From Diphasiastrum complanatum (taxonomy: Eukaryota; Streptophyta; Lycopodiopsida; Lycopodiales; Lycopodiaceae): a stretch of 64,000 nt of DNA. Positions 1 to 59,878 of this stretch are shown here, one piece after another (positions within the stretch are counted from its first letter, which is position 1; every line of letters starts with the position of its first letter). The position numbers and the translations under genes were made by a program. The stretch covers positions 76,259,431-76,323,430 of the forward strand of contig CM055095.1 of assembly GCA_029204225.1 (NCBI GenBank). The letters run 5' to 3'. The notes under the pieces were generated by a model, which made no database searches, was not told the DNA's origin, and worked only from the letters and a program-made list of their open reading frames with translations.

Positions 1-2325
1 CCTCAGAAAATGGTTGGTCGCTGTTGTACATATCTTGATAAGACGAGTTAAAGCTGAACATGCTCACGATGTCGCTGACAGATGCAGTGGGTGGAATTGG
101 GCCGCTAACTGAATGAATGCCATGAATTGATGGATCCCAGACTTCAGATTGATCTGATCTGAAGCCGTTGTAAACTGTACTCTGATAACCCTGGCTTCCA
201 AATTCTATCACATGATCGTTTTGCCCGCTCACATCACTATCGAATCCGGGGTCTTTGCTTGCAATAAGATGGGGAGATTCCAGTGGAGGTAGGGCATTCA
301 GAGCCTCTGATGATCCATTGTAAAAGGTGCTCTGTTGGATGTCTTTGATATGAGCCTTTTTTCCTCCGGGGGTTTTCTTGAAGATCCGACATACAACCCA
401 CTCTGAGTCCTGTTACAAAACATTAGCCATAACCATTAGCGGTTTTTCATGTCTTTCAGTTCTAAGGAGCACACAGAAATGGCAGGCTCAAGCAGCGCAT
501 AACATGATTCTGCTTCTTTACCGCAACCTTCTACAGATACTGTAGTTTATTTCACAAACAGTACCGTGACATAAATATGATCCGTTTCGCAAAAATGCAT
601 CATAGAATTGCTCCATAGTTCCTACTTGACAAGTCTGACAAGTTTAGTAGTAGGAGCTCGTTACCTTTATCTTTTGCAAATTATCTTCCCTACCCAAAAA
701 AAAATCGAAAATTTTGAAATTGCAACTACATAAATGTCTTTGTGATAGAAATTTGTTTCTTTTTACGGGAAGACTGTGAAAACACCTGCAGGCTGTCAAT
801 CAAACTTATCACAAAGGCTAAAGCTATACAATCATGGTAGACATGCTTTCAAATACGTTTCCTAGCAGATGCCATGAGATAAATTTTCTGGACTATATGT
901 AGCGCCCTTCACACGTACACCAGCGCCATTTATCTTTTCATTACTAAGCTGTACACTGTTTAATAGAATTAAGCTACCTTTAAACTACTGTCATAGAAGC
1001 TGAATAGACATGCCAAAGAGGTCCACATCGAGCATGTACAAGCTTTACCATAGAAAGTGTAGCTTCAAAGTTCACGTACGCCGGAAAATTTTTAAAACTA
1101 AAAGAACTGGATTAATTTGAGCCTTCTTCAATTAACTGGACTGTTCTTCAGTTGATCGAACAAGGCACTATATGGGTCACCCATCCTAGGTAAAATTGTG
1201 CGAAGCAAGCACAGATTTCAAGATCTGGGACGACATCTCTTTATTCAAAATTACCATAGGTTTTTTACTTTCCCGAAGAATTCTAGCTTAGGAGTACGTC
1301 AAAATTGCAGAATACTCTTGGAATATCCTAAGAGATATCTCATCCTCAACTCTCTTCATTTCTTCAGTGGCTATTAGATTTGCAGACGTCAATACCGTAT
1401 ATCAGCATGGCACAGAGAAGGGAATGAAAATTACAGCCCTTACTCTTACTCACATCCACAAACTTTGCTCGCAATTAGTGAAAGCACAATACAATCCGTG
1501 CAAGCTATGCTTAACTGTTAGTCAGCCGATAAGATATAAACAGAAGACTAGAGAATCTGCACTCTGGTCACTAACATCATCGTCAACAAAATACCGCATG
1601 CTTCTGCCATAAGTATGCACAGATAATGAATCAGAGCTTTTAGGCAGAAGGTTTGGAAAGGTGTTGAGCATTTCCATATCTAAATTGTCGAGGCTAGTAG
1701 ATCCGTTTCATAGTTGCTAATCTCTTCGGCATTCTTCCATATTCTAGATAGCTAAATTACAGCTATATATCCTATGGCTCGCATAACCAAAACCTTGTCT
1801 CATGCTGAATTGATCAGAGGCTACAACATACTTGCCAAGACACAAGACCCACATCGATTGATCTTCCTATATTGTTCAATGTTGTTAGCATATTTGTTAC
1901 GACAGATATCTGCAGTGCACTGATAACTGTCCCAACAAAAGGGTTGAATTGACTTGTTTACAAGATTATGTACTAGAAACTGTTTGTGCGAGCATTCAAC
2001 CATAAAGGATGTTCTACCTTGGGTACCTTGGCAATATGGCAGTCTGATTCCAACCTATACTCGTGCATGATCCAGTTTGTCTTCTCTCCTCTGGGTGCTC
2101 GTCCCTTATAAAAAACTAGAGTCTTTTTCATTCCCAGCAGATGCGACGAGCGAGAGCTCATCACTTCTTTATCTTTCCCTGTGGCCTTCCAGTAGCCAGC
2201 GTCGGTTGCTCTGTTCGTCCGCATGCCTGTTGGATACTTCCTATCACGGACAGCATAGAAATACCACTCCTTCTCTCCTATTTTCGCCATGCCTGCTTCA
2301 CACAGACATGATATGAGTGGTTTTC

Positions 2326-2379
<54 letters not shown>

Positions 2380-2584
2380 GCGCACCTGGAAGATCCCAAG
2401 GCTCACACCGATTGAGGTCAACTTCTCCTATATGTCGCACCGTGAAATTGGAATCCTTAACCTTTGGTGTAAGATAGGCTTCCACAAGCTCGTCATCTAG
2501 AGGGTGGAATCTGAAGCCTGGAGGAAGCCATAGTGGCTCCATCTTATTGATTTGGGTCTGTGTCGTTGTAGTAAATTCCATCAT
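1..2584 (-). CDS. NAC-domain transcription factor, C-terminus off the window
   Basis: Plant-specific NAC transcription factor, expected to act in the nucleus as a DNA-binding dimer. Three exons with GT-AG introns: 2386-2584, 2018-2292 and 1-409 (continuing off the left edge). Phases agree (1, then 0). NAC subdomains are readable in order: A ([19 protein letters not shown]), B ([14 protein letters not shown]), C ([36 protein letters not shown]), D ([29 protein letters not shown]) and E ([12 protein letters not shown]). The D block resembles the NAM/CUC group. The variable C-terminal part is Ser/Asp rich, typical of a NAC activation region. The start is MMEF at 2584; the second Met at 2581 is equally possible. 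Oddity: subdomain A has [11 protein letters not shown] where most family members have P(T)DEELV..YL. A (GA)n tract fills much of the 93-bp intron 1; intron 2 is about 1.6 kb. About 294 residues are visible and no break was seen. Confidence 0.95.
410..2017 (-). other. NAC intron 2 (no other gene seen)
   Basis: A 1.6-kb intron with donor AAG|GTAGAA and acceptor AACAG|GACTCAG on the minus strand. Inside it I see only short spurious reading frames and ordinary AT-rich sequence. No nested transposon or RNA gene was recognised. Confidence 0.75.
2329..2376. repeat. (GA)n microsatellite in NAC intron 1
   Basis: About 48 bp of pure GA on the plus strand (CT in the transcribed orientation). It sits just downstream of the exon 1 donor and forms much of the 93-bp intron, acting as part of its pyrimidine-rich sequence. 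Confidence 0.95.
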
Positions 2585-6840: not shown

Positions 6841-7481
6841 CATGTCACAATGAGCTTTCGATAACATAATGAAAACATCATCCAAAGTATAACGTTTGAG
6901 ATGTTTTGGCATATCATGCTGTACTTTATCTGATTTTTCTTCCTCAAAAGGATTGACCTTGGCTCTTCGTTTAGCTTACTTGGCAGGAATCGATTGCGGA
7001 AGTGATGACTTCGTAGAAGATGTGGTCTTCTTGGAAGGTGACGATTTCCTTGATGGTGATTTCTTGCAAGAACTTTGACTTGAAGAATCCTCCTTGATCT
7101 TTTCTTTACCTTTATCCACATCTTTAAGAACTGCTTCTCTTGATGCATTACAGGAGTTCTCAAACTTAGAAGGGCCGTTTGTTACGAGTTTTTTTTTTTC
7201 CTCTCTGTTTATGTCCATGTGGCCCAATCGGTTCTTGACGTAGTGGCTTCTATGTAACATAACTCGCCTGACCCGGAAAAAACAATTCATTTTTGGGCAA
7301 ATTTGAATTTCCGGTCCGGTAGATTGGAAGCATACTATTGGCTGGCGTGCGCGACGACTGGTTGACTAAACTGCTTGGGTTAACCTCATGTTAAAATTAT
7401 CTTGGGACTCACAAATAGGTTTGGCGCCTATTATACTCTGGACTCTCATATTGACAAGTTCAAACGTGAACTCTTCAAGCT

Positions 7482-8834
7482 ATGGCGATGAGAAGGAGAC
7501 CGAGATCCTTGATATGCTCTGCAATTTTTTATAATGAGAGGGAAGACGATGGCACATGAATTGCTCGTGAATATCATAAGGCTTCTTGGGTACTGATGCA
7601 TCCATCGGCGAGAGGGGCTTTTCGCCAAAAGAAAAAGGCCAAGTATACATATACATCTTATTGGAAAGGGCGGATTATTGATTTCAAAGTTTCTCCAAGA
7701 GGACAAACCATTTCAGAAGTGCTTATTCAACATGTTTATATGCATTCTGAACTTAATGTGGAGGCTGTAAATCCACATGATTTTCGAAAGTGTAATTGTA
7801 AGTATCTTAATTTTTTGGATTGCTTGTCATTTTTAAAACGTAATCGTATTTATGAATTGGAGCTTATTATGATTTTGTATTGCATATTCATATCCTTCAA
7901 ATATACATGAATGGGAACCTGTGGCGTCTCTTTCAGGTATTATAAATGTCATCCATTCAGAAATTGGCAAATTGCAATACAGAGGACGAACGGCAAAATA
8001 ACTTGCAGATTCTGGAATATTTTTTTATGATGCTATGTATATTCTAGACACAAATGGAGGAATGGGAAAACTAGAGTATATACCTCTACCTAATTTTTAA
8101 GATAACGTGTGGTGGATTGCAGTCAATGACAATATAATAAAATGCTTTCGTTCCAAGCTATATAATGATGTACAAAAGTCACTCAAAACTATTACTGGAT
8201 CAAGAAATGTGCACTTAAGCTGGTTTGTTCCAATGTCATTGTTTGTCAGCTCTTTTTCAAACACGGAAGTGCATCGAACTCCCACATTGTTTGTTTGCAA
8301 AAATCTATCAGATGATTTTTTATTCAAATTCATGGACAAAGGTTGGGATATAAGATCCACTGCAGATATTTCTTGTAGAATCAAACATTCATCCATATCA
8401 TTTAGATACAGTATAGAAAAGCAAATGCTTAGTATGATGTTTCATTATCAGAGATGGAAAGAACACAATGGTACTTGGGCCCCATTAGATCAAGATCTAG
8501 ACAACATTGGACACACTGATCGTATATGCATTGATATCATGGCAAATGGGGATTTACTTACTACTATTGAGGTTGAGCAAGACTGGACCTTATTTTACAT
8601 TAGAACGGAACTGACACTTTTATAGAAAGATATCCCCGAATATTTCAACTTTATATTGGATGGAAAATTGGTATGTGAAATCCACGAATTTGTATTCATT
8701 ATCCTTTTTGTCAATATTCGGATCACTAACTGTAATCTGATCAATGTATGTTTGTGCAGATACGTAAAAGAGATGAAGAGAAAATCAAATGCAAAGATTT
8801 GGACAGAATTGTTCAGATAATAGAGCAATCATGA
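7482..8834 (+). pseudogene. Gene A: unrecognised three-exon gene, decayed, possible ubiquitin-like tail
   Basis: Three exons keep one reading frame through good splice sites: 7482-7797 (donor GTAAGT), 7937-8670 (acceptor TTTCAG, donor GTATGT) and 8760-8834 (acceptor GTGCAG, then TGA). About 370 codons. Exon 1 is Arg/Lys-rich (MAMRRRPRSL, FRQKKKAKYTYTSYWKGRI). Exon 2 holds an alpha/beta-looking region (NVWWIAVNDNIIKCFRS, NVHLSWFVPMSLFVSSFS, DDFLFKFMDKGWDIRST). The end (RICIDIMANGDLLTTIEVEQ, IPEYFNFILDGKL, IRKRDEEKIKCKDL) could be a ubiquitin-like beta-grasp tail; that is a guess. One in-frame stop lies in exon 1 and three in exon 2, so it is probably inactive. It converges on gene B with about 180 bp between stop codons. 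I do not recognise the family. Confidence 0.6.
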
Positions 8835-9012
8835 TACAAGATTTGTAAAAGCTCTCATAAATATCAATATATTTCTCATTTTTTGAGAATGTACATGTGT
8901 GTCCTGTATTTAACAATGGATGCTTTTTTCTCATTGTCTCTATCTTTCTATATGCCCATAATTATTCACAGCGCATTACATAAAAAATGTATATATCTAT
9001 TTAATCTATTAT

Positions 9013-10840
9013 TTACAGCTCAAAGTAGTATGGATTATCTCCACCCTGCACTAGTGTCAGTTGTGGACTTGATTGGCCTCCCGTTTTCACAGCTGGACTG
9101 GGTGTTGCATGAGATAATAAGTCCACCAACATCTGTTGACGAAACTCATATATCTCATTCATTGAAAATGCTCGACATCTATACTGCAAATCCAACAGAG
9201 CCGACTCAATTGACTTATTAGAAACCAAATCGAAAATAACTTAGTTAGGCCATTCACTAGTCTATTTACCTTTCGTATATCTGGAACCCCGCATTGCATG
9301 ATGTACCACTCTAAAAAGTCCTGTACATTGCGGATGGAGAACCATCTACAGCTATGTCCATCATCTTGCTGAGCTGACTTCAATCACAACACGTATAATA
9401 GGTTAGTTGTGCACTCTGAAAAAAACAGATCATATTAGCTATCAAATACTTGATGAGAAATACTTACTTCTGCATCAATAGTCTCCAGGTGGCTATTTAC
9501 AATGGCCCCATCCGGCCTTGGCAAAAATGGCAACATTCTGCTGTACATCACGTCCATTTCGGCATGGGTAGACTTTAAGAAGTTCATCTTTAAACAAATG
9601 GGATTAATGATCCCATCTGAATCTTCCCTAAGGGAGATTATATGCATACTCCAATGCTTACTACAAACAAGAGATAATTAGTTAAACTAAAGGAATTACC
9701 ATACCTATTAAAAATATTACTAGAATATATTCTATGTAATCACTTACTTTTGGCAGTATGGAATAATAAAGACTTTGGTCTCCGAGGTTGTATGAAGAAG
9801 ATACTTCGTCGCCTTAGTTGGACTATGAAGGCTGTGTGCAAAAAAGGACAACACAACGCCAATGTCCTTACTATCATCGGATTTACATCTATTTACAAAA
9901 TACATCAAACCAGCCTCCACAACTGGATCTAATATATTTGAGGTCTTCTCCTTCAGGGCATCACAAAAGTCTTTATATATGTGATTTATATAATTAATTG
10001 AACTTAGACAAAAAGAAAATTGACCTCCTAGCTTATCAATTTCTTTGGAAACATACTCATAAAAAATTATATACCTCTCAGAATCCAAAAATGAATCTTT
10101 GGGATCAGCAGAAAATCTTACACAAATATCTTTATAAAAATCATCTATTAAATTTAAATCTAGATCCGATATTATTTTATCTACAGTCGAGTTCATATCC
10201 TCGTTATTGTGGGATGGAATGGAGGGAATGGAAGAGGAACTACTTGAATAGTTAGGGGTGGTGGGAGGAGAAGAAGGCACTGCAGACTGGTGTGATGGTC
10301 CAACCAAAGAACGAGAGATGTGAGAGGGGATGGTGATTCGCTAAGTACCACCATTTGCTTAGTAGGCCTGGTGGGCTTGGTCTGCTTCCTCCTTCTTCGT
10401 TGAGGAACAAGACCTCTCTCTGTAGGTGGTGGCCTAGAAGTGAAGCCACTCTTAAAGACCTGATCGTATGTACTCCTCAGCCTCATGACAAGATGCATGT
10501 CCTGAGGCATGAGGGTAACCCTCTTAGCGTGCACTGTGCAAAGCATGGAGTCCTCAACGAATTTGACTTGGAAGTCCTCATAGGCAGTATGGAGGGCTTC
10601 CAGGGCTGTTATGTTCCAGTGAACATCATGTGAGAGGGACCTTGTTACTAATCTCACAGACCTGTAGAAAGGAGCACGAGGAATCAGAAGATTTGTTGTC
10701 CTCTAAAGTCTCCTGATATCCCTTAACCATGGTCTTTTGGGCCAACCTACTCTCCTACCAGTGCCCACTGCCCTTTGTACAGGAGGGCGAGGAGGCGAGG
10801 CAAATGTGGTAAGGCGTGCTGTATGCTTGGTACGGGCCAT
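9013..10840 (-). pseudogene. Gene B: histone H3-like domain fused to Ulp1/C48 cysteine protease
   Basis: Four exons: 9748-10840, 9468-9660, 9270-9377 and 9013-9213, all with GT-AG introns and matching phases; about 530 codons. Residues 1-126 read as histone H3: tail MARTKHTARLTTFASPP, alpha-N LRDIRRL-RTTNLLIPRAPF, then HWNITALEALHTAYEDFQV, FVEDSMLCTVHAKRVTLM and PQDMHLVMRL. Length between alpha-N and alpha-2 equals canonical H3, while W in loop 1 and EDSMLC..VTLM recall CENH3. A basic, Ser/Pro-rich linker (PQRRRRKQTKPTRPTK) follows. The C-terminal part is a Ulp1-type SUMO/ubiquitin-like protease: FIIPYCQNKHWSMHIISL (catalytic His of HW) and AQQDDGHSCRWFSI (Gln and nucleophile Cys). A TAG stands at codon 46, where H3 has Gln, and one frame change lies in the linker near 10305-10345. 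It is therefore probably a pseudogene, or these are assembly errors. The start is favoured by the H3 N-terminus and a TATA box at 11081-11088. Confidence 0.85.
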
Positions 10841-11634
10841 TTCAAGGTAGGGTATCAATATGACGCGCCAACGAGAAGGAAAAGCAAATATTCAACAGGG
10901 GAGGCGCGTGATGGTGATATGAGGGATGGCGTATCACCACGACGCACGGGGGGGACAAATGTACTGGTATGTGGGCGTGTGGTAGCGATATGCGTCTAAC
11001 GAGGAGCGGAAGTGAACAAAGAAAACTAACGAGAGCCAGAGAATGAGAATAAAAGAACTGAAATATGAGTCGAAAACGTCTTTTTATACCTGTAGAACGT
11101 CCCATCATATTCGCACGTGTGATGTGACACCTCCACTCCCCGCACGTGTGGTCACACGTGTCATCACACGCATATGTCACGTGTCAGGATATTAGCACTT
11201 CGTAGATCACACGGCTGGCAGCACATGCGAGGACACATGGCGACATATGGACCACACACGCGTCACAAGACGACTGGGCCGTACGATCGTAGAGCTGGCA
11301 TGCACGTGCAAGGACACGTGTCAGGATCCGAAGTGTACACGTGTCATTCAGAATGATTTCGCCGTCGTTTTCACATGTGTGGCAATTTTGACCACACGTT
11401 ACTGAGACACGTGTACGGTTTAGATGCTCTGTATTAGACTATATATATGAGTGTCATTTCTGTAATTCAGTTTGGCATATTGATCCAATTAACTGTCCCG
11501 CTCCAAATCTGTTCGTACAATATTGCTACCACGCACCCAACAGAGAGTTCCATAGTTGCACTGATTCCCTGGCGCGTGGTTCCGATATTCGGATTTGCGT
11601 TATGTCCCCTTGCTAACCGGCGCGTCATATCGAT
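10841..11634. promoter_or_regulatory. Bidirectional promoter between genes B and C, with CACGTG cluster
   Basis: This 794-bp interval separates the divergent starts of gene B and gene C. Two TATA boxes face outward: TATAAAAA on the minus strand at 11081-11088 and TATATATA on the plus strand at 11440-11447. Between them are eight perfect CACGTG hexamers, at 11114, 11143, 11155, 11178, 11303, 11315, 11338 and 11408, mostly as ACACGTGTC or GCACGTGTG. CACGTG is the plant G-box/ABRE core bound by bZIP and bHLH factors, so abscisic-acid, stress or light control is plausible by inference. The non-coding stretches 10841-11080 and 11448-11634 would be the two 5' UTRs. Confidence 0.7.
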
Positions 11635-12463
11635 ATGGCCTCCTCGTCTGCTAGTTCGATCGATCTACTATAAAGCTCTTAGTCTTTTCCTTGTTGATGC
11701 TGAGGTTAGCAACAGACAGGACCATTTTTTGTCCTATTTTGATTTTCAGTTTGACATAGAGAGATTTGTTATTGAGCACAGGGAAATTTTTCCTAAACTG
11801 TACAAGGATTTTTATGACTGCTTGCAACAGGGTACCCTTCTGATAGACGACCTGAGGTTTGTGCATTTCACAGATTTGTCTCATGCTCAGCCTAGTGCCA
11901 AGCAAAGGCATGATCGTAAGTTTACCAAACTTATCGATCTGTTTAAACGTGTCATACCCTGTGAGGAACACAATCGAGTATGTCGCTTCGTTCAGGAGGG
12001 TATGGCCTTCGTGTTTTTCTTATCTGCTCTTATCCCTGACGAGGCAGAATCTTCTGGGTCGTCCATGATTGGTTTGCCTGCCCCTACCACTCGTGTGGCA
12101 TCAAAGGTTTCCATTACGGATGAGGTTTTAGGAGATGTAGAGGAGGCCAAACAAGCACAACAATATGATCCTGCCAAGGCTCGTTCTCTGTCTATCTCTC
12201 CCTTATCTACCGTGAGCGAGATTGACCAGAGCAGAACCCTGATGGACCTCCCTGTGTACCATACGGATGATGTTGCATTCTTATCAATTAGCGACATCGG
12301 AGACATAATGGATCTCAGAGAAGATGAGATATTATCTCTTATGTCAAGGATGATTTCTAAATTTAAAAATTGGTCATTACTTGCATTCAAATTTAACATA
12401 ATATTATGTAAATGTGCATTATCTTCTTTTGTTTGTAATAATGCGGTCTCTTTTTCTCTATAG
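11635..12463 (+). pseudogene. Gene C: unrecognised protein, divergent partner of gene B
   Basis: The start is ATG at 11635 (MASSSASSIDLL), about 190 bp below a TATA box. After one frame change near 11675 the reading continues as YKALSLFLVDAEVSNRQDHF and through FDIERFVIEHREIFPKLYKD, then DFYDCLQQGTLLIDDLRFVH and RKFTKLIDLFKRVIPCEEHN. An acidic, Ser-rich region follows (IPDEAESSGSSMIGLPAPTT to ISDIGDIMDLREDE). The frame has no stop until 12463, but the last 100 bp look non-coding, so an unseen intron or earlier end near 12350 is likely. There is no membrane segment or catalytic motif I recognise. It is predicted soluble and largely helical in the first 150 residues. Confidence 0.55.
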
Positions 12464-13260
12464 TCAGCAAGCAAACCATTTAACATACATTCTAAACTCT
12501 GTCTTTTTCAGAACTGAGTTTGCAACACCATAAGTCATCAATCTTTCACAATAACCCAATAAACTGTTTTCTCCGTCACACAAAAACTTTATTAATTGTG
12601 TGATGGATTGGAATTGTGAAGCTTGCATCGAGCTCAGATCCAATGGATACAAACTTCTGTCAATCCACAAATCGTAATTCTTTTTTTGGTTGATTCTGTG
12701 AGCGATCATATCAAGTGGAGAAACTGTGGATTTTTTCACTACTCCTCTTTTAGCTATCGGAGCATTCTCGGCAGGGAGAACAATGTGTAGATGAAATTGA
12801 GACATCTTCGCAAACATCAGATGACAGACCAAAAAGAAAATAGACACTATTATTCATCCATGACATACCTGAGATTCCATGTTTATTCTCTCGCTAGTTA
12901 AAACGAGGGACACAATCTCATTTTCAAATTTGAAAAAGTTAGTTGATGAGCATCATAGGTTCTTGAAGTCGCAGTTGCATACGTCATAATCGTGTCATGT
13001 TAACTACACATTACTAGTAAGGTTAAGCTAAACTGGGCCGAAAGTCCGTTGGAGTTTTAAAATCCGGTGTTTTTTTTGTCCTACGTGGCATTTCTTAGAC
13101 GGCCCTTTTGATGTTTGTAACTCCTCTAATGATTTTTCCCATTTCAGGACCGTATTGTAATGTTGCTTCACTTGTTTCTTCGTCATTGGTCTTGCAGCCT
13201 TTTCTTCCTTCAATATAACTGCGTTAGGTGGTTTTATTGTTGGTTCTTCAGGAATATCTC
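12375..13260 (-). pseudogene. Gene D: unrecognised, partly coiled-coil protein
   Basis: Minus-strand coding-like pieces in order. Near 13250-13030: EEPTIKPPNAVILKEEKAAR then MTKKQVKQHYNTVLKWEKSL, basic and helical. Near 12950-12870: FENEIVSLVLTSERINMESQ ending at a donor CAG|GTATGT. Near 12810-12490: LPAENAPIAKRGVVKKSTVS, DLWIDRSLYPLDLSSMQASQ and LCDGENSLLGYCERLMTYGV. After a frame change at about 12510: LNGLLADYREKETALLQTKE, a coiled coil. The exon joins are only partly resolved. The gene converges on gene C, and the two coding signals meet or overlap around 12350-12460. No known domain was recognised. Confidence 0.45.
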
Positions 13261-13532: not shown

Positions 13533-15085
13533 AGTCATGTTTTACCAAGAAAGTCAGCAAAGGCAATGATGAAACATGCTCAATTTGAAAAAATGGAAAA
13601 TGAAATTGCATAGACTGTTTTGAATAAGGTTCAAACTTACTAGGATGCAAATGTGATACTAGGTGCATGAGATTTTTCTGGACTTAGCAGAAATGCTTAT
13701 TCTACTTTTTTTAGAATAGTTAAAGAAGCCTATTCTCAAGTGATGTTGAAGACAACTTATCTTCTTCATCCATATTGGGTAATATTAGCAAAAAAAATAT
13801 TACAATGACGGAATGTTCAAAGTAGTTGGCCAACCACTTCAAATAACTGAATTATACAAATTAGAATATGGTGAGCTCAATTACAACGATTGCAATAATA
13901 TTTTCCTTGATATTGAAAATGTTCTAAAATACATTATTCAATTCTATAAACTAGACGAACATCAAGTAAATAGAAAGATCATTATTGTAATAAAATTGGA
14001 TGAATCCGAAAGCATCAAAGGTCAAAAGTTGAAACGAGTGAGTCTCACTTTGAAGAACAAAATTTGAGACACAGATGATCGAACATTTAGTGTTCAATCA
14101 AAAACTCACATAGGGTGGTTGGCAGCTTTCCAGGTATACAATTCAATTTTCTTTTTAAGTATCATTATTAACATTTCATACATTGCCATTTTTTATTAAC
14201 ATGTCATGCATTACTGGCTTCTCTACAGGACTTGAAAGAGGACCATAAATACTTTCATGGATATTTTGACGAACAAATTATGGCGAGATTATAAAGAGAC
14301 ATTTGGAGGGTGAGAAATTTACAGTCGAAAACCATGGAAGTTTTCAAATTCAATGGCACCTTGCAGGGGATTTGAAAACATTGAAATGGGGTAAAGCAGC
14401 TATTAAAAGGTTGGAAGAAGTTCTTTCAAAGGCAAGATTGAATAAAGGGAATTTCGTCATTGAAAAAAGTGATAGACTATTTGGCAAAAAAGGAAATGTT
14501 CCTAATAAGCCATCAATTGGAGGTGCTAAAACAAGAAGGTTCTTATTCAAATCACACGTGCAAAGAATCTAGTGTCAGATTTGGAATTTGAAAAGAAATT
14601 GTTCAAGCAACATGAACACTGGAAGTAAGTAATCGAGTGGAAAAGAGACAAGTGTGGAACAATTTAGACTAACTCATAGGTGTTATTAGGAAAGAAAACT
14701 TATCATCAGAAGATATGAGGACTTTGCAAAATCATTGCACAATAATTGTAAAATCTGTACATGATGGTTGGGGAAAAGAAAACGTTACACATTATGTGGT
14801 ACTGATCTATTTCGTTTTATGGTACTTATCTCATTCATGATTATATTTTTTTCAACTGATGTTACTTGTTTCAACTCTTGTTTGCAACACATTTTTCTTT
14901 ATCATATAACTTATTTTGCAAATGAATTTGGGAGCTTAAGTATTTGGTCTTCTCAAGGCATGGAAAAATCACATTGGCAAGCGAGAGGAGCATTTGATAG
15001 AGCTACAAATCATGGAGGACACAATTCAAAAAATAAATATTTAGTTCAACTTTTTCATTGGTTTTACAAAAGAGCACAATTTTGA
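13533..15085 (+). pseudogene. Gene E: decayed protein resembling an RNase H-fold transposase
   Basis: The plus-strand frame from 13533 reads SHVLPRKSAKAMMKHAQFEK, then DFSGLSRNAYSTFFRIVKEA. After a frame change at about 13810 it reads MFKVVGQPLQITELYKLEYG, then RKIIIVIKLDESESIKGQKL and KRVSLTLKNKI. An intron (14134-14228, CAG|GTATAC to CTACAG) follows, then DLKEDHKYFHGYFDEQIMAR and, in another frame, SFQIQWHLAGDLKTLKWGKA. A strand carrying Asp (IKLDES) followed later by WHLAGDLK is the layout of the first two catalytic Asp residues in many RNase H-fold transposases, and similar phrases occur in unclassified eukaryotic repeat proteins (from memory). Several in-frame stops make it inactive. The stretch 14768-15085 (GSLSIWSSQGMEKSHWQARG, AFDRATNHGGHNSKNKY) may be its C-terminal region. 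Confidence 0.45.
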
Positions 15086-15189
15086 TATCAAGCTAAAAAC
15101 TCACCAAATGTTATGATTTTTTGTAAGGCATTCAAATTCATTACAAAAGAGAGATCCTTGTAATATATCAATAATTTATTACAGAAGAT

Positions 15190-16284
15190 TGTTTAATTTT
15201 CATCATGATCCTCTTCAAGATTCAGACAGATGGTATTGTCATGAAGGAATAATCTCCTTTCATATGGATCTAGAAATTCTAAATTTTTCCTTTTGCTCAT
15301 ATCAATGTAATCCGAATAAAGGGCCATTGCAGATGATCTTTTCGTAGTCTCATTGGGAGTATAACCCAATATTTTAATGGCCAAATCCCTTTTCACAAAA
15401 ACTATTCTATATGTTCCTTTGGCGTATGTATGGCCTCCTAAACAAATAGATAATGACTTGATGGCCATAATGACAGTGGTAGCATGTGAATTAAAAGATG
15501 AATAATATAAGATAGAGACACATATTTTCTCCCAGCTGATACACCTTAGACGCCTCCATGTCTCATACCAAAGGCATTTATTTCAATAGCATCTTGTAAA
15601 GGAGTCAAGAAAATAAATTTAAAATGATAGATAGCAATGCAAACTAAAACTTCAACATAGTGTTTGAATAAAGAAAACTACACAACATCAATATCTACTT
15701 ACTAAATTATAATCATTGTATTTAACGACGGTTGTTCTGCTAATGTCATGTCCTCCAATGGCCTCTACATTGTTCGAGGGGATATATTGAGTCCTTGGAG
15801 GATATTTTTTTTGGAATTCCAAAAATTCCTCCTTTGTAGCCAAAGTTTTTTCATAGGCTTTCAATTTTTCAATTACGGCCTCCAATGTCTCATCGCCAGA
15901 TTCCCAATTGCCATCTTTATTATAATCTATCTCACTTTCAAGATCATTATATGTGTAATCAATAATGTAAGAAAATTCTGATAAATGTTGTGCAAAAAAT
16001 GAGAGGATTTCATCCTCTCATATATTCAAATCATCTTCTATATCACTAAAAGAAATATAACTGTCTATACATTGAGTAGAGTTAATGGATTAATGGGAGA
16101 TGCAGATGGAAGAGAGTCAAAGAGGATTATAGAATGAGGGAGAGTTTTCTGATAATCTGAAGCCATAGATGCTTCAGCTTCAACCTCTATGTCAGTATCT
16201 ACTTCATCTACATCATCTGGTTGCATCACAAATGACTTTTGGCTCAATAGTGGCATTACATGTGGATTTGACCAATTTGCCAAC
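15190..16284 (-). pseudogene. Gene F: unrecognised acidic protein
   Basis: From 16284 down: MANWSNPHVMPLLSQKSFVM, then a very acidic stretch (QPDDVDEVDTDIEVEAEASM). After a frame change near 16095 it reads STQCIDSYISFSDIEDDLNI, one TGA, then EDEILSFFAQHLSEFSYIID, DLESEIDYNKDGNWESGDET, a helix LEAVIEKLKAYEKTLATKEE and FLEFQKKYPPRTQYIPSNNV. A donor TTA|GTAAGT lies near 15698. A second exon holds GGHTYAKGTYRIVFVKRDLA, IKILGYTPNETTKRSSAMAL and LDPYERRLFLHDNTICLNLE, with its stop at 15193. About 290 codons. It converges on gene E. I recognise no family. Acidity and lack of membrane segments suggest a soluble, possibly nuclear, protein. Confidence 0.45.
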
Positions 16285-20482: not shown

Positions 20483-20707
20483 TGACAAAATTTCCAGAAT
20501 TCACACGTGTGGGGAAATATCCACAAGAGTGACTGATCTTAATTAAGCTTTGTGACTGGCACTATAACCTGATTCTAGATTGATCAACAAAATCTAGTTC
20601 AGAAGAAATGGCTAATCCATAATCTAGCATGCTAATTAACTGAATATAATAGCAATGATCAAAGAATGAAAAAATACAAGATTTCAATGTATGAGCATTA
20701 GCCTCAA

Positions 20708-20788
<81 letters not shown>

Positions 20789-21323
20789 AAGCAATATTTG
20801 TTTAGATCCAAAATGACATGAGATAGCTACAAAACTTTGGTTCTTCATCATTGATTGTGTGGAGAGCTACACATATTTATGGAGATTGAGGTAGCTCGAG
20901 GTAGAACCATATCTATCCATTCCAAAATGACATCTAAAGTGACATATAGAGTCTATGTGACATTTGTCACTTGTCATGCATGAAATTCTACCAACTTTTT
21001 ACAAGTGTACTAGTTCTAACTAGAAATGTCCAAATCATCATGCATGTGTCCAATAAACTTTGTGCATGCCTTGCATGCCACTATGGATCACTTACAATTA
21101 ATGCATGTGAGTTGCCACGAGTTTCTACAAGCATAATCATGCTAATTCTATGTCTACAAACTATATGCAAGTTGCATTTATAAAACTAGACAATACATAA
21201 CCATGTAGCTCGAATTCTATCTAGGCCAAACTTGGCATTTTGCATTAATGAGCTACATACTTGCATGGTACAACATTTGTAGCAAGCCAAGAAATCAGTA
21301 TGGATTGTTTTTCAATTTTAACA
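20483..21323 (-). repeat. Copia 3' LTR
   Basis: 841 bp, TG..CA ends, including a long (GA)n tract at 20711-20786. It is nearly identical to the LTR at 25315; the main length difference lies in the microsatellite. Confidence 0.95.
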
Positions 21324-21340
21324 CTCCTCCTAAAAATGAT

Positions 21341-23914
21341 CTATATTGATTTGAACATGGATCTTGGTATAACTCCAAGGTTGGCTCTATGCTTGTTGAA
21401 GGATCTTTTGCTCAAAGGTTTGGTGAGCATATCTGCAATGCAAGATGATGTGTCGATGTGCTCCAATTTGATTTCACCTCCAATGAACTTCTCTCTCACG
21501 AAGTGATGTGCAACTTTGATATGTTTGCTCCTTGCATAGAATATTGGGTTGTTGGCAAGGACTTGAGCTAAAATGTTGTCACACATGATCATAGGCATAT
21601 TTTCTTCCATAATTATCTTTAGCTCCACTAGTAACATCTTGATCCAAAGCACTTCCTTTGTTGTTGTAGTGAGCGCCTTGTACTCAGCTTTACATGATGA
21701 GAGTGATACAGTATCTTGCTTTTTGGAAAGCCAAGATATCAAGTTTTCTCCAAGATATATGACATAAGCACTTGTAGATTTCTGATCTGCTCTATCACTT
21801 GCAAAATCCGAGTCAGAATAACCAATAATAGAAATATCTTCACTTTTATATAATAAACCAAAATCAAAAGTTGAAGATATATATCTAAGCACTCTCTTGG
21901 CCTTTTTCCAATGATAAATTGAAGGATTTTGCATAGCCTGGCTCAACTTATGAACACTAAAGCTTATGTTAGGTCTAGTTATTGTGAGCCAAATTAAGGA
22001 GCCTATAAGACTTCTAAAAAGTGTGATGTCCTCGAAGGATCTTTCATCACCTTTGTTAGAGTCCTTTACTTTTTGCTCCATAGGTGTTTCTATACTCTTA
22101 CAATTCAACATATTGAACTTTTTTAACATTGAAAGAGCATACTTGGATTGACATATGAAAGCTTTATCTTTAAGAAAGTCAATCTCTAATTCTAGAATAT
22201 AGTGTATTTTTCCAAGATCTTGCATCTTGAATTCTTTTCCAAGTGCAATCTTGGTTTCCTCAACTAACTTGATACAACTTCCTGTCAGAATGATATCATC
22301 AACATAAATAAGAAGGATGACAATATCTTTATCAAAAAACTTGACATATAAGGAAGGATCATAGTTACTAAGATTAAATCCTAGTGACTCAAGAAAGGTG
22401 TTAAGTCGCGAATACCATGACCTTGGGGCTTGCTTCAATCCATATAAACTTTTGAAGAGCAAGCAAACTTTTCCCTTATCATGGATGAACCCAATAGGTT
22501 GATCCATATAGATCTCTTCTTCTAGATAGCCATTTAGGAATGCATTAGAAACATCTAGTTGAAGAATTTGCCAATTGAAAAAACAAGCAAGAGAAATTAT
22601 GATTCTAATTGACACCATCTTTGCAACTGGGGCGAAGGTCTCCTCATAATCAAGTCCATATACTTGAGCAAATCCTTTAGCACACTCACATAAAGATCTG
22701 TTTTTCCTCTCATCTACTCCATTTTGAGATGGAGAATAGGCACAAGAAAATTCTCTCTTTATTCCTTCACCTTCACAATAATTATGAAACTTGTTGGAGA
22801 TATATTCACCTCCTCCATCACATCTTAAAACTTTAATTTTGCAAGAAAACTGTTTTTCTACATAAGCTTTGAAGATAAGGAAGTGATCAAAAACCATAAC
22901 CTTTGAAGAAAGTAGGTACAACCAAGTGTATCTAGTAAAGTCATCAATAAAGGTGACAAAACATGTTGCACCACCAATACTTTTAGAAGAGAAAAAATGT
23001 ACATTTGAATGTATGAGTTCCAATGGACAAGTAGACTCTATAAAAGACTTCTGATATGGCTTTCTATGTGACTTTGCAATGGCACAAGCCTCACAAGGCT
23101 TGAAATCTTTAGAAAGAAATTTTGGAAGACCAATAGCCTTCTCCTTCTTAACCATAGAAGACATAGATGTAAAGTTAGGATGTCCCAACCTTCTATGCCA
23201 CATCTTCTCCTTAGATAACAAAACAACTTCACAAAGGTTTGCATTCTCATAAGAATTCAACTTAAAAATTCCACCACATCTAGTTCCATCAACAAGGATC
23301 TCATCTTTTCTCTTGATAAAACAAGTATTGGAATTGAACTTTATATCACAACCATTATCAAGCAACTTTCCCACACTAATTAAGTTCTTTGTAAGTTTTG
23401 GAATGAAAAGAACATTAGAAAGTGCAAGAACTTTTGAAGAAGCAAGTTTCAATGGAATGTTGTCAATTCCTTCTATTGGACACTCATGATCATTAGCTGT
23501 GTAAATAGATCTCTTGAGTCCTTTGAAAGGTAAGATTGAGTCAAATGACTCCTTTGAACAGCACATATGTGAAGAGGCTCCATTGTCTATGTACCAAGCT
23601 CCATCTTTCTTGAAAGGTGATGAGGAAATACTGGACACCATAAGTGATCCTTCTCCATCACTTTCAACAGAATCTTCTTCAATCTCTTTGGAGAGATTAG
23701 CTTGCTTGAGTTGGTTTTTCTTCTTAAAGCAATTAGAGGCATAGTGCCCATGTTTGCCATAGAAGAAGTACTTCACTTTCTTCTTCTTGGTTTTTGTGTG
23801 AGGGATGAGATGTATCATCCTCTTCACCATCTTGATCTCGATCTTTGGCTTTGTCTTTGTTGTATGCTTGAGAGAATTGGTTCTTACTCCTTCCTTTCTG
23901 CTTGCCTTTGACAA
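21341..23914 (-). CDS. Copia pol polyprotein (protease, integrase, RT, RNase H), fossil
   Basis: An 857-residue frame with Copia domains in order: a gag-type zinc knuckle at the N-terminus (FYGKHGHYASNC), protease (WYIDNGASSHMC), the pre-integrase zinc region and integrase (MWHRRLGHPNFTSM; IDDFTRYTWLYLLSSK), reverse transcriptase (LQLDVSNAFLNGYLEEEIYM, YGLKQAPRSWYSRL, LLIYVDDIIL) and RNase H (GYSDSDFASDRADQKSTSAY). It supplies the enzymes for reverse transcription and insertion. Its end lies just inside the 3' LTR. The frame is a little shorter than usual for the family, so the element may depend on other copies. Confidence 0.9.
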   Translation of the reverse strand: MSKASRKEGVRTNSLKHTTKTKPKIEIKMVKRMIHLIPHTKTKKKKVKYFFYGKHGHYASNCFKKKNQLKQANLSKEIEEDSVESDGEGSLMVSSISSSPFKKDGAWYIDNGASSHMCCSKESFDSILPFKGLKRSIYTANDHECPIEGIDNIPLKLASSKVLALSNVLFIPKLTKNLISVGKLLDNGCDIKFNSNTCFIKRKDEILVDGTRCGGIFKLNSYENANLCEVVLLSKEKMWHRRLGHPNFTSMSSMVKKEKAIGLPKFLSKDFKPCEACAIAKSHRKPYQKSFIESTCPLELIHSNVHFFSSKSIGGATCFVTFIDDFTRYTWLYLLSSKVMVFDHFLIFKAYVEKQFSCKIKVLRCDGGGEYISNKFHNYCEGEGIKREFSCAYSPSQNGVDERKNRSLCECAKGFAQVYGLDYEETFAPVAKMVSIRIIISLACFFNWQILQLDVSNAFLNGYLEEEIYMDQPIGFIHDKGKVCLLFKSLYGLKQAPRSWYSRLNTFLESLGFNLSNYDPSLYVKFFDKDIVILLIYVDDIILTGSCIKLVEETKIALGKEFKMQDLGKIHYILELEIDFLKDKAFICQSKYALSMLKKFNMLNCKSIETPMEQKVKDSNKGDERSFEDITLFRSLIGSLIWLTITRPNISFSVHKLSQAMQNPSIYHWKKAKRVLRYISSTFDFGLLYKSEDISIIGYSDSDFASDRADQKSTSAYVIYLGENLISWLSKKQDTVSLSSCKAEYKALTTTTKEVLWIKMLLVELKIIMEENMPMIMCDNILAQVLANNPIFYARSKHIKVAHHFVREKFIGGEIKLEHIDTSSCIADMLTKPLSKRSFNKHRANLGVIPRSMFKSI

Positions 23915-24009
23915 AGAGGGAAGAGGGCTTTGTCACTTCCACCATGTTCAAGTTTGTTCATCCTGGAGAGTTTATAGCTTTGTCTAGATTCTTCAGAAAT
24001 AAGAATTCC

Positions 24010-24549
24010 TTAGAGAGTTTCTAGATTAAGTAACTCCTCCTTAATAGCAAAAGATTGAACAAGATTATCATAGTCATCTCTCAAGCCATTCAGTATGACT
24101 TGAACTAGCTCAACTTGGTTAATGGTAACACCAACACAGGAAAGCTCTCTATGTAAATCTTTAACTCTCAGAACATACTTAGATGCACTCTCTTCACTTC
24201 TTTGAAAACTTTGGAAAATCTGATTCCTAAGAGTGAGTATTCTAGAAGTATTCTTTGCTTCATAGATGGTCTTTAGTGCATCCCAAGCTTCTTTGGCTGT
24301 AGTGCAAGATCCTATCTCTCTCAAAATTTCATAAGATACATTCATCTTAATGAAATGTAGAGCCATTCTAGCTCTCTTCTTATATTTAGGAATTTCAACC
24401 TGTGCTTGAGTCTCCTCCTCAACACCAAGCACAATATCCATAACATCCTGGAGAATCAAAACAGACTCCATTCCTAACTTCCAAATTGAGTAATAAGAAG
24501 TGTTTAGTCTTTCACTGGCTTCTAGAAGATAACCTCCCTGAGATGCCAT
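24010..24549 (-). CDS. Copia gag (UBN2/DUF4219-like), fossil
   Basis: A 179-residue frame typical of Copia gag: the stretches AKEAWDALKTIYEAKNTSRI, LRNQIFQSFQRSEESASKYV and VILNGLRDDYDNLVQS follow the UBN2 pattern. The zinc-knuckle region lies further along, in the pol-side frame near 23760. Gag forms the cytoplasmic particle. It is the first gene after the 5' LTR. Confidence 0.85.
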   Translation of the reverse strand: MASQGGYLLEASERLNTSYYSIWKLGMESVLILQDVMDIVLGVEEETQAQVEIPKYKKRARMALHFIKMNVSYEILREIGSCTTAKEAWDALKTIYEAKNTSRILTLRNQIFQSFQRSEESASKYVLRVKDLHRELSCVGVTINQVELVQVILNGLRDDYDNLVQSFAIKEELLNLETL

Positions 24550-25299
24550 TATAATGAAGACTTCTTAGTTATTGGATTGAAGTTTGAGCTTGTTCCTATC
24601 AAACTTAGAGTTGTTGCTCTCTTTCACTATAGGTATTTTCAAGGTTGAACTACCTTCCTTTGTGAAACACTTGCAACTATATATGAGATGAATCTCAAAT
24701 ATTCAACAAGACAAGTTATATAGATCAGACACAAAAAGTGGTTTGTGACACTTTGGCTGGTTTGAATCCTACTTTTGGCACGTGTGAAATGCTTCAAAAG
24801 AAAACACTATTGACACTCAGAAGGCTCAAAGGGTATTCAAATACTTCAAACTCAGTCTTGATCTACAGTTTCTTGTGTTGGATGCTCAAAACAATGGATT
24901 CAGAACAAAGTATAATTGAATCAAATCAAAATGTTGTCACTCGGATTTTGGACCTATCCCTATCCTCTTTAAGAGCTTATAACTCTTGCTAGACACATTA
25001 GATTATTTGGTTTTAATTTTTATAAAAAGTACAGATCAAATGCTTTCCATCAAGCTATAACACTGCTATCTTTGGATCTATAAGTAAGGAGAACAAAGGG
25101 ACTGAAAAACTCTGATTTTCACACGTGCGGAATTCCAGAATTCCGTACTTCCTCAATTCAGGTCTAAAAATTCAGTTCAAGTCCGATTTGATCCAAATAC
25201 ACTTCAGAGAAAGGTTAGAAAAAGTACAAAACTGCTTTTTTGCTCGATTTAGCTCTCAGTTTCTTGTACAATCAGAATTGTTAGCATGCAAAGCTTAAT

Positions 25300-25314
25300 G
25301 TGGCTCTGATACAA
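25300..25314 (-). other. Copia primer-binding site
   Basis: The minus strand reads TTGTATCAGAGCCA directly inside the 5' LTR. This matches the TGGTATCAGAGC primer site complementary to plant initiator methionine tRNA, as in many Copia elements. Confidence 0.8.
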
Positions 25315-25546
25315 TGACAAAATTTCCAGAATTCACACGTGTGGGGAAATGTCCACAAGAGTGACTGATCTTAATTAAGCTTTGTGACTGGCACTATAAC
25401 CTGATTCTAGATTGATCAACAAAATATAGTTCAGAAGAAATGGCTAATCCGCAATCTAGCATGCTAATTAACAGAATATAATAGCAATGATCAAAGAATG
25501 AAAAAATACAAGATTTCAATGTATGAGCATTAGCCTCAACACGAGT

Positions 25547-25610
<64 letters not shown>

Positions 25611-26145
25611 AAACAATATCTGTTTAGATCCAAAATGACATGAGATAGCTACAAAACTTTGGTTCTTCATCATTGATTGTGTGGAGAGCTACACATATCT
25701 ATGGAGATTGAGGTAGCTCGAGGTAGAACCATATCTATCCATTCCAAAATGACATCTAAAGTGACATATAGAGTCTATGTGACATTTGTCACTTGTCATG
25801 CATGAAATTCTACCAACTTTTTACAAGTGTACTAGCTCTAACTAGAAATGTCCAAATCATCATGCATGTGTCCAATAAACTTTGTGCATGCCTTGCATGT
25901 CACTATGGATCACTTACAATTAATGCATGTGAGTTGCCACGAGTTTCTACAAGCATAATCATGCTAATTCTATGTCTACAAACTATATGCAAGTTGCATT
26001 TATAAAACTAGACAATACATAACCATGTAGCTCGAATTCTATCTAGGCCAAACTTGGCATTTTGCATTAATGAGCTACATACTTGCATGGTACAACATTT
26101 GTAGCAAGCCAAGAAATCAATATGGATTGTTTCTCAATTTTAACA
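25315..26145 (-). repeat. Copia 5' LTR
   Basis: 831 bp. It carries its own (GA)n tract at 25549-25606 and should hold the element promoter, read on the minus strand. Followed by the target duplication ATTTG. Confidence 0.95.
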
Positions 26146-28884: not shown

Positions 28885-29340
28885 CCCTATCAATGTTGTA
28901 ACAAGAATCCATTGATTCTATCAAACCAAACCCTTGGAGCTTGCTTTAGCCTGTAGAGAGCTTTTTGCAGCTTACATACTTTGTGTTCTTGGCCTTGAAG
29001 GACGTAACCTTTAGGTTGATAGATGTAAATATCTTCTTGTATGTATCCATTCAAAAAAGTTGTCTGAACATCCATCTAGTGTACTTCTAGATCTTCAGCA
29101 ACTGCGAAGGTGAATAAAGATCAAATTGACTGAAGTCTTACGACTGCACTGTAAGTCTCAGTGCAGTCAATCCCATAGGTTTGTTCATAACCTTTACAAC
29201 TAGATGAGCTTTCCATCTGGTTGTTGAACCATCTGGATTGAGATTTAGCTTGAAGATCCACTTGGTGTCGATGATCTTTGCATCTGTAGGAGTAACGACA
29301 AGATGCCAGGTCTTGTTCTTCATCAGTGAATTGTGTTTGC
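28885..29340 (-). mobile_element. Copia reverse-transcriptase fragment, fossil
   Basis: Two neighbouring minus frames read as Copia RT: the N-terminal part (KNKTWHLVVTPTDAKIIDTK, WIFKLNLNPDGSTTRWKAHL) and the next part (MDVQTTFLNGYIQEDIYIYQ, LYRLKQAPRVWFDRI). Broken relic, a few hundred bases of a once 5-kb element. The left side ends near 28885 and the right side abuts the 1-kb tandem array. Confidence 0.85.
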
Positions 29341-29344
29341 AGTC

Positions 29345-33110
<3,766 letters not shown>

Positions 33111-56326: not shown

Positions 56327-56374
56327 GAACTAGGGGCCCCCGGATATAGAAGCTACCCGAGATCCCCTACCAAT

Positions 56375-59300: not shown

Positions 59301-59878
59301 ACGTTTCGGGCTTGCCTATTCTTCCAGTTTATCTTACACAGACGCTATCTTTTGGTCTGAGATATCGTATAGGACAGCTTCGAGTCTCTTCTCATCAGCT
59401 TGCTATCGAGACAGGTAGATACACAGACACTCCCAGATTGCAGCGGATATGTCAGCTTTGTTCTCTTCAGGAGGTGGAAGATGAGTTTCATTTCATCTTT
59501 CGCTGCCCAGTATACTATGAGATTAGAGGACGATACCATTGTTTATACCGAGATATTCCCCTCACGTTGAGCTCCTTCCTCGAGTATCCAGATGCTAGAT
59601 GTGTGGGTCTTCTTTTGAGAGAGATGTATATTTTACGAGCTTCACTTCTACCTACGCTCTCAGATATGGATTCCAGTCAGTCTCACATTACTCAGTTCTT
59701 CCAGAAGCGAGACAGAGTGGATATTTCGGTTGCGGATTTTGACGTCCCCGTCCGAAGATCGAAGACACAGAGAGTTTCGGCTCGATCCAGTGCTACTAGA
59801 TCTTCATACGCCTCCCACCAGCCTACATCACGACCCACTACTACCATCACTCATTACTTTCGGCTTGCTCGTAGCTAG
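56375..59878 (+). CDS. LINE ORF2: AP-type endonuclease, reverse transcriptase, zinc motif, two PIP boxes
   Basis: A 1167-residue uninterrupted protein that would nick target DNA and copy the element RNA in place. The endonuclease comes first: RLGFWNCNSFL, LLLAETHES (about residue 32), LLAGDFNART (148) and SDHSLLHIS (255). RT motifs follow: NVGNYRTIMIGHTLAKIY, QAGFRPGYSTSDQIF, CCFVDFRKAFDSVPRHL (about 590), GVKQGCPLSPTLFALYIDDL (653) and LLYADDVVLLS (about 693; YADD catalytic box), then YLGVLFSG. Near residue 1025 lies CQLCSLQEVEDEFHFIFRC, a Cys/His motif. The C-terminus has QSHITQFF (1102-1109) and TTTITHYF (1155-1162), both PIP-box-like, separated by a basic Ser-rich linker. An alternative start a few codons upstream is possible. 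There are no frame breaks, so this copy may have moved recently. The clade is uncertain; I saw no RNase H domain. Confidence 0.93.
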   Translation: MRLGFWNCNSFLSSSSAGDFADFIRKCDILLLAETHESLYHPLPNIQEYSWHSAFRPFVRGKTCRGSGGVACLYRDTTVQMVKQDPYARYIWLHIIGSLLGLPQDIYIAVCYFAPQTSVFAEFGGDPFQALSDDIAIFSQQGSILLAGDFNARTSSRQTEFHAATDLLRLYPLDMGLDRVSQDADTPATSFGEQLITLAETHALAILNGLTQWPSSSAYTCYPHGGGHSVVDYFIGSPALISHISDFSITPPTISDHSLLHISLGHITSSLQISCSLPTHKRIPFTQSGFTNYTTILSQLLANFPFMAPIDQQATFLSTSLLAAASSSFPTKTTSSHRSVHNRWYDAECRSLHNHVTYARSHSPATLKQCQKEYHRTTRTKKIKYLQSLCQKMINSLDSPSSSFFWKHFTRHSSTLAPIAIESWIEYATELYTTDSPPTSLSPRPDHCSLFTPDMVENAIKHAKLNKATDYDSLSVDFLKPVAHLISPYIAHVFNTAVTSGFPTAWCTNILHPILKAGDPMNVGNYRTIMIGHTLAKIYGSILQTVTGSFAETEGLHAMGQAGFRPGYSTSDQIFILRCIIEEARHRKQRIYCCFVDFRKAFDSVPRHLLFQRLSSLGFSEDTIAAIITLYERVLARFRDGSGWSSQIHSTIGVKQGCPLSPTLFALYIDDLERIIREEGGEGCPLADIIIPILLYADDVVLLSSSAAGLQSHLSALHHFCQRWGLTVNLKKTKIMVFNTNRQHMRDVIFYYDGLPIEIVTSYTYLGVLFSGPLLTFRPAATARLRKGHTALVHMERFCSTYYVQDPATRCLLFSATVSPVVLYSAETWCPDLSRDTWRDLTRIQILMLSRIIRAKPSVPHDIILAEFASPPLVVGAMFQIITFLHRVSDLDTSRYIVAALTSSCTIADQGAKHSWYRSVSALLQTWGLSALDLPNGTHAYIRQQIYRSYIRTIWSHPDPDRVKLHYYGTHLLRLDVSGLPILPVYLTQTLSFGLRYRIGQLRVSSHQLAIETGRYTDTPRLQRICQLCSLQEVEDEFHFIFRCPVYYEIRGRYHCLYRDIPLTLSSFLEYPDARCVGLLLREMYILRASLLPTLSDMDSSQSHITQFFQKRDRVDISVADFDVPVRRSKTQRVSARSSATRSSYASHQPTSRPTTTITHYFRLARS

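Follow-up and report, generated by a model that had tools for sequence, protein, structure and literature searches.

Gene content of the locus

The window analyzed here, a stretch of 64,000 nucleotides from contig CM055095.1 of the lycophyte Diphasiastrum complanatum, contains a copy of a DNA transposon in which a histone H3-like domain is joined to a Ulp1/C48-like protease domain (Table 1). The fusion gene lies on the minus strand, beginning at position 10840 with MARTKHTAR and reaching its last base at 9013, and its three introns (9747-9661, 9467-9378, and 9269-9184) are all of the GT-AG type. The exon coordinates were hand-counted from the translation output. An earlier reading made from the sequence alone (the sequence-only reading) had described this start and an H3-like stretch behind it, and both are indeed present, with the H3-like stretch matching the Pfam Histone family at E = 9.1e-22 when its in-frame stop is read as X.

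That reading had also proposed that the three introns, with exact phases, join the His and Cys blocks of a Ulp1-type SUMO protease to the histone in one spliced gene. The introns hold up, and splicing restores QNKHWSMHII and AQQDDGHSCRWF (QNKHW / SAQQDDGHSC). One base is missing from the linker, however, between approximately 10340 and 10190, and the H3 and C48 parts of the window copy thus lie in different frames. Because of this deletion and the TAG at codon 46, the window copy is unable to make the fusion as it stands; the sequence-only reading had noticed neither lesion. The proposal of a single spliced gene therefore fails for the window copy but stands for the design of the family, as seen in a majority frame of 521 aa and in an intact copy, L067, both described below. 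The Peptidase_C48 match of the window copy is weak (E = 0.027; 14.7 bits, below the Pfam cut-off of 20.7), and an Arg takes the place of the Gly that follows the C48 Cys. A tblastn search of the window gave no further H3 or C48 match beyond the fusion gene, and an Rfam search of the window gave no match.

Table 1. Coordinates of the transposon copy, its terminal repeats, and its genes within the window
Feature	Position	Strand	Details
H3-Ulp1 fusion gene, pseudogene in the window copy	9013..10840	-	exons 10840-9748, 9660-9468, 9377-9270, 9183-9013
Histone H3-like domain, codons 1-123	10472..10840	-	Pfam Histone E 9.1e-22; PDB H3.3 E 2.3e-24 with copy L023
In-frame TAG, codon 46 in the H3 part	10703..10705	-	CAG in the majority of copies
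Linker, basic and Ser/Pro-rich	10195..10471	-	contains the 1-base deletion of the window copy
Ulp1/C48-like part	9013..10194	-	exon 2 encodes the His block and exon 3 the Gln-Cys block
DNA transposon copy, 5986 bp	7146..13131	.	internal deletion near 12366; ends compared among copies; alignment to C14 copy
Left terminal inverted repeat	7146..7174	+	CATTACAGGAGTTCTCAAACTTAGAAGGG
Right terminal inverted repeat	13103..13131	-	CATTAGAGGAGTTACAAACATCAAAAGGG (minus-strand reading)
Element gene A	7581..8831	+	in-frame stops in the window copy; matched 7581-7796, 7933-8673, 8760-8831
Element gene B, 5' part	11660..12366	+	remainder deleted in the window copy
Element gene C, 5' part	12367..12853	-	transposase-like part deleted in the window copy

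The transposon that carries the fusion gene

The element in the window is one member of a DNA transposon lineage that is present in this plant genome in high copy number. The association of Ulp1 genes with plant transposons, which the sequence-only reading had mentioned, applies here: the fusion gene belongs to that lineage rather than being a single host gene. A full-length copy on contig C14, of 8596 bp, holds genes A (+), H3-Ulp1 (-), B (+), and C (-) together, and the window copy is without approximately 2.56 kb of it. The inverted ends of the element read CATTA..TAATG. The left end, CATTA, was found with differing flanks in 12 of the 13 copies searched (it was not found in L032), and the right end, TAATG, in 3 of 9, where the fetched piece of the other six may end before it. 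Genome-wide, the end pattern was found 125 times, versus three times for a backwards control. Ten of these places were read; one flank is common to three of them and another to four, and the last four of the ten have a different inner sequence and may belong to another repeat. Two near-identical copies, L015 and L020, lie in opposite orientation 0.33 Mb apart on contig C19 (37.18 and 37.51 Mb), as either a duplication or an assembly artifact.

No target duplication is visible in the three copies that have both ends. The flanks of the C14 copy, when joined, give by eye an uninterrupted Gypsy reverse-transcriptase/RNase H reading, and all 40 scored matches to this empty site (40 of 967 candidates) cross the junction, most of them exactly, at 260 of 260 bases. 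Because genome matches run straight across the joined flanks, the C14 insertion took place without adding a target duplication.

Gene C is transposase-like by motif. Its transposase-like part is seen in the longer copies L035 and L050, where it reads WHLAGDWKPLK..CLYC..HICTLH, with putative catalytic residues assigned by eye. Pfam searches with genes A, B, and C gave no match over the cut-off, the best being CCDC47 for gene B (E = 0.0011), and the gene C pieces searched gave no transposase match, including to Mutator-type and PHIS-type families. Mutator-type elements have a Mutator transposase and target duplications of approximately 9 bp. VANDAL transposons, which are Mutator-type, differ from the element in that it has CATTA..TAATG ends, no target duplication that we could see, and no Mutator-type Pfam match. 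The CMCT clade (EnSpm/CACTA, Mirage, Chapaev, Transib, Plavaka, and ESTA) is described, in the available part of the source, as having 5'-CA..TG-3' termini, the motifs C(2)C and H(4)H, and target duplications of 2-5 bp (PMC12730594). The element shares with this clade the CA..TG termini and both motifs (CLYC and HICTLH after GDWK in gene C), but it has no target duplication, as opposed to 2-5 bp, and no Pfam transposase match. As the Pfam match and the target duplication are missing and the residues were placed by eye, we do not file it as a CMCT member. Spy transposons of the PHIS superfamily, according to the accessible text, insert within AAATTT and have inverted ends without a target site duplication (PMC4482050). 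Inverted ends and the absence of a target site duplication are common to both, whereas no AAATTT target is seen in the flanks of our element and Pfam finds nothing of the PHIS type in gene C.

A second, diverged element adjoins the first in the window (13664-16220), with related genes C (+, 13664-15103) and B (-, 16220-15208) in reversed order.

Copies of the fusion gene across the genome

The genome searched was the window's own, which comprises 1.74 Gb in 5176 contigs. A DNA search with positions 9000-10900, in which 40 of 982 candidates were scored, gave at least 44 matches, and the full-length ones besides the window are 90-96% identical. At the protein level, the H3 part together with the linker gave at least 150 matches with identities of 68-100% (150 of 6936 candidates scored), a lower bound for the family in which fragments and duplicated contigs are included. 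Thirty loci were reduced to 22 distinct copies, including the window, by dropping L010, L011, L012, L019, L020, L028, L030, and L031 as near-identical. The majority state of these 22 copies is a single 521-aa frame, running from H3 through the linker to C48, with three GT-AG introns. The sequence-only reading had proposed a search for other loci with both domains in one transcript, and within this genome many loci do carry both in one frame, including single copies on different contigs (L023, L026, L028, L029, L030, L063, L065, L067, and L083).

All of the first 30 loci carry some lesion, and with 20 further loci the count of those with a lesion or a missing part comes to 49 of 50. The exception, L067, retains its ATG and every splice site, is free of stops, and has lost nine bases in frame. 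Spliced, it gives an intact 518-aa coding sequence up to the stop codon, and its residues 1-473 pass both Pfam cut-offs (Histone, 73.2 bits with a cut-off of 26.4; Peptidase_C48, 22.3 bits with a cut-off of 20.7). L065 is stop-free as well but has lost a splice donor.

If two neighboring genes or pseudogenes had been joined by chance or by mis-assembly, the differing frames of the window copy's two parts and the stop in the first would be readily explained. The single frame of the majority state and of individual copies on different contigs speaks against such a junction, however, as does frame-specific constraint on the linker itself (see below). Within the window's genome, L067, the copy L083 of a second family, and the copy number refute it, and we regard it as having practically no chance of being correct. 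The fusion is far beyond chance: it is a genome-wide repeat with frame-specific selection. That it is real, as a maintained transposon gene, we consider nearly certain. No H3-Ulp1 fusion was found in a full-text literature search, outside the coverage of which most subscription papers lie. A search of viral contigs returned 117 pattern matches and no relative, and a plasmid search gave no match.

Selection on the fusion frame and traces of silencing

Among the 22 distinct copies, changes found in a single copy are neutral (omega 1.00; 390 changes), changes found in exactly two copies have an omega of 1.63 (92 changes), and changes common to three or more copies have an omega of 0.42 (107 changes), or 0.29 in H3. 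On a maximum likelihood tree, omega on internal branches is 0.19 for H3, 0.43 for the linker, and 0.58 for C48, versus 1.11, 1.25, and 0.82, respectively, on terminal branches. By the Fisher test, internal and terminal branches differ for H3 (p = 0.0003), for the linker (p = 0.034), and for all parts (p = 0.0004), and the difference is not significant for C48 alone (p = 0.55). Stop changes number 6 on internal versus 39 on terminal branches, and those on internal branches are perhaps the result of repeated deamination at the same site.

A diverged subfamily, L068 and L069, has kept the fusion. Relative to L067, these two copies have a true-frame omega of 0.18-0.28 in all three parts, versus 0.72-2.53 in the two shifted frames. 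Compared with each other, L068 and L069 give values of 0.35, 1.01, and 0.39, with 0.35-1.23 in the shifted frames and nothing clear between them. The middle-distance copies L066, L070, and L072 have omega values of 0.17-0.57 for H3, 0.41-1.03 for the linker, and 0.54-1.03 for C48, the last being near 1 in L070 and in L072, the C48 part of which is badly decayed. The dS of L068 and L069 to L067 is approximately 0.6-1.3, which is probably inflated by methylated sites since the intron distance is only 0.27, and for this reason we give no date.

The 22 copies contain 46 stops, 40 of which are C>T or G>A changes. The rate of C>T change per site is 0.114 at CG, 0.106 at CHG, and 0.021 at CHH, such that CG and CHG changes are five times commoner, a bias expected of methylated, silenced copies. 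Taken together, these sequence comparisons suggest purifying selection on the joined protein, in the fusion frame, while the elements were active.

A second family with the same fusion

A search with an H3.3 protein (150 of 5845 candidates scored, at least 154 matches) gave at least 13 full-length loci at 92% and some short exons, in addition to more than 100 loci at 41-53%, the window's family included. L089, one of the 13 full-length loci, is a canonical H3, and four small loci that were read comprise one canonical H3 and three H3.3-type exons. Six of the 41-53% loci were also read, and three of these, L083, L084, and L088, carry both parts of the fusion but belong to another family. The L083 frame is open from MARTKQTTR via the linker and the first C48 exon, with the His exon beyond a putative stop-free intron, and a later frame reads SQQVDSFSCGWYAIKD; the Gln-x5-Cys-Gly box of the window's family is present in L083 too. 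L084 and L088 likewise contain these parts, interrupted by a frame change or a stop. In Pfam, the L083 frame matches Histone at 88.2 bits, and the frame searched, which is without the Cys exon, has no match to PF02902. The alignment of L083 to L067 (E = 3e-95) has 37% identity overall. The two H3 cores share 64% identity, compared with 42-50% to host H3, and this closer kinship favors one fusion event.

Genes A (37-45%) and B (45-50%) surround the L083 fusion in the order and orientation seen in the window lineage, and gene C, of which the 5' part gave two short matches, likewise keeps its place and orientation. In the L083 region, tblastn gave no match to the transposase-like part of gene C, and the ends of the L083 element were not found. 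Judged by its sequence, this second family is much older and keeps the fusion together with its neighbors A and B.

These results bear on the alternative that the element recently and accidentally captured a host H3 gene, in the manner of Pack-type elements, and that the product has no function. The lesions or missing parts in 49 of 50 loci would agree with idle cargo, and there is a precedent in Dothideomycete fungi, where a hAT transposon multiplied a captured histone H3 and the H3-like sequences were inactivated by RIP (PMC6710886). That system resembles ours in the multiplication of an H3 coding sequence by a DNA transposon, but the word fusion does not occur in the text of that source and no Ulp1 is seen in its available part (PMC6710886). 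An idle capture is contradicted by the internal-branch omega of 0.19 for H3, by frame-specific constraint across an old divergence, and by the occurrence of the same fusion with the same neighbors in a second family. The intact copy, the frame-specific selection, and the second family lead us to reject a recent idle capture, which we consider very improbable.

The histone H3-like domain and the linker

A PDB search with a 143-aa stretch of L023 returned H3.3 (E = 2.3e-24), and the best 60 of 178 rows are H3 throughout, including one H3/CENP-A chimera. Lys occupies the H3 K4 position throughout, in the 22 distinct copies as well as in 13 others, which were taken from 20 further loci by omitting seven, most with a missing or changed start. 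At the K9 position, by contrast, all 22 copies have Leu, the 13 further loci have Leu, Ile, or Phe, and L083, L084, and L088 have Pro; Lys was never found there in the copies read. The H3 part presumably resembles CENH3 at TNLLIP and RW, making a CENH3 origin a candidate. Host CENH3 was not recognized among the matches listed for the H3.3-protein search (150 of 5845 candidates scored). An AlphaFold2 model of the H3 part alone, built without an alignment and with the TAG read as Gln, has a pLDDT of 45 and is uninformative. The basic stretch PQRRRRKQTKP in the linker could serve as a nuclear signal.

A different H3-like repeat with a proline-rich N-terminus occurs at L085, L086, and L087 (contigs C10, C8, and C19) and perhaps accounts for many of the loci matched by the H3.3 protein. 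The H3 fold of L085 is 55% identical to host H3, a stop follows the fold in L085 and L086, and no Ulp1 part was recognized in the frames read at the three loci.

The Ulp1/C48-like domain

All six family members searched match PF02902 at an E value of up to 1, with a best value of 1.1e-7, and the first member, L005, scores 29.6 bits (cut-off 20.7). Across the 22 distinct copies, the His is conserved in 22, the Gln in 21, and the Cys in 20, and the position of the catalytic Asp is occupied by Asn in all 22; the register was set by eye, with SENP2 and a host ULP as references. Of the 13 further loci, nine retain the His, ten retain the Cys, and ten have Asn at the Asp site. The PDB search with profile A1 placed SENP2 best at E = 0.11, with an unrelated enzyme at 0.17, and that with the C48 part of the window gave no match. 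A profile comparison with one host ULP (L001) is weak, at 13% probability and E = 0.0021.

Since Asn stands in place of the catalytic Asp in every one of the 22 copies, C48 activity may be weak, or the substrate may be something other than SUMO. A domain that acts on another ubiquitin-like protein, or one that merely binds and is non-catalytic, would be in keeping with this substitution, with the faint resemblance to SENP2, and with the missing PF02902 match in L083, the searched frame of which lacks the Cys exon. The retention of the His in every copy and of the Cys in 20 of 22, the PF02902 matches in all six members, and the Gln-x5-Cys-Gly box of L083 point the other way, and we think such a non-SUMO or non-catalytic domain quite unlikely.

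Possible roles of the fusion protein

In plants, H3K9 methylation feeds CHG methylation and silences transposons, and SUMO acts in silencing. With these roles, the absence of K9, the C48 domain, the C>T bias as a mark of silencing pressure on the copies, and an analogy to the VANC and KIU proteins of VANDAL transposons in mind, our preferred reading is an anti-silencing deSUMOylase of chromatin, in which the H3 part would bring the enzyme to element chromatin to resist silencing. We give this reading about an even chance. Judging from homology, the H3 domain would pair with H4 or a histone chaperone and so enter or dock on element chromatin, where the C48 domain could act on silencing or repair factors and strip them of SUMO or a related modifier. 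A tail with K4 but without K9 might in addition let nucleosomes resist the loop between H3K9 methylation and CHG methylation. Overall, the element would be shielded from silencing. The sequence-only reading had suggested that the protein could place a deSUMOylase directly in chromatin, and such a placement would fit the selection data and the predicted domains.

A further-reaching form of the anti-silencing reading is that the lineage builds its own chromatin, from a private H3 variant that keeps K4, lacks K9, and is joined to a deSUMOylase, such that element nucleosomes would refuse H3K9 methylation and SUMO-dependent silencing factors would be stripped locally. This form is conceivable, if short of probable. 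The main rival to the anti-silencing reading is a role in tethering or transposition, in which H3 would tether the machinery to particular chromatin or chaperones and C48 would process or deSUMOylate the transposase or its partners. The fusion does adjoin A, B, and C in the C14 copy, in the older family its neighbors are A, B, and the 5' portion of C, and the purifying selection on the fusion is in line with this role. The copies listed, however, are spread over many contigs and positions, and inspection by eye shows no obvious clustering; we consider a role in transposition rather unlikely.

The closest known parallel to the anti-silencing reading comes from the VANDAL (non-TIR MULE) plant transposons, which carry the KIU/Kaonashi Ulp1 genes and the VANC family proteins of which counteract silencing, according to the available parts of the sources (PMC13317346, PMC5735166). 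A Ulp1-like domain on a multi-gene plant DNA transposon is common to both systems, but a histone domain is not mentioned in those parts (PMC13317346, PMC5735166). Transposon-borne TET/JBP dioxygenases of fungi, in the accessible portion of another source, are likewise thought to aid escape from silencing, and they resemble the fusion in being transposon-encoded with a presumed anti-silencing role while differing in enzyme, substrate, and host kingdom (PMC12730594).

Transposons with Ulp1 genes and transposons with captured H3 genes are thus known separately. A fusion of H3 to a protease, conserved among the regular genes of a transposon, would give selfish elements a new means of acting directly on chromatin. 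It would also offer a natural case of a histone and an enzyme in one protein, and it raises the question of whether a K9-less histone variant with its own deSUMOylase can keep plant DNA unmethylated.

Other features of the window

Several further features lie elsewhere in the window. An uninterrupted LINE-type frame of 1183 aa at 56327-59875 (+) encodes an endonuclease and a reverse transcriptase. A Copia retrotransposon occupies 20483-25842 on the minus strand, with gag at 24013-24564 and pol at 21344-23932, and is probably young, as its end repeats are approximately 98% identical over the pieces shown. A DUF659 fragment of a hAT-type transposase is found at 61015-62160 (+), and a block of approximately 1-kb tandem repeats, in three to four copies, spans 29335-32975. 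A NAM/NAC transcription factor gene with a CT-repeat in frame lies at 1976-2584 (-).
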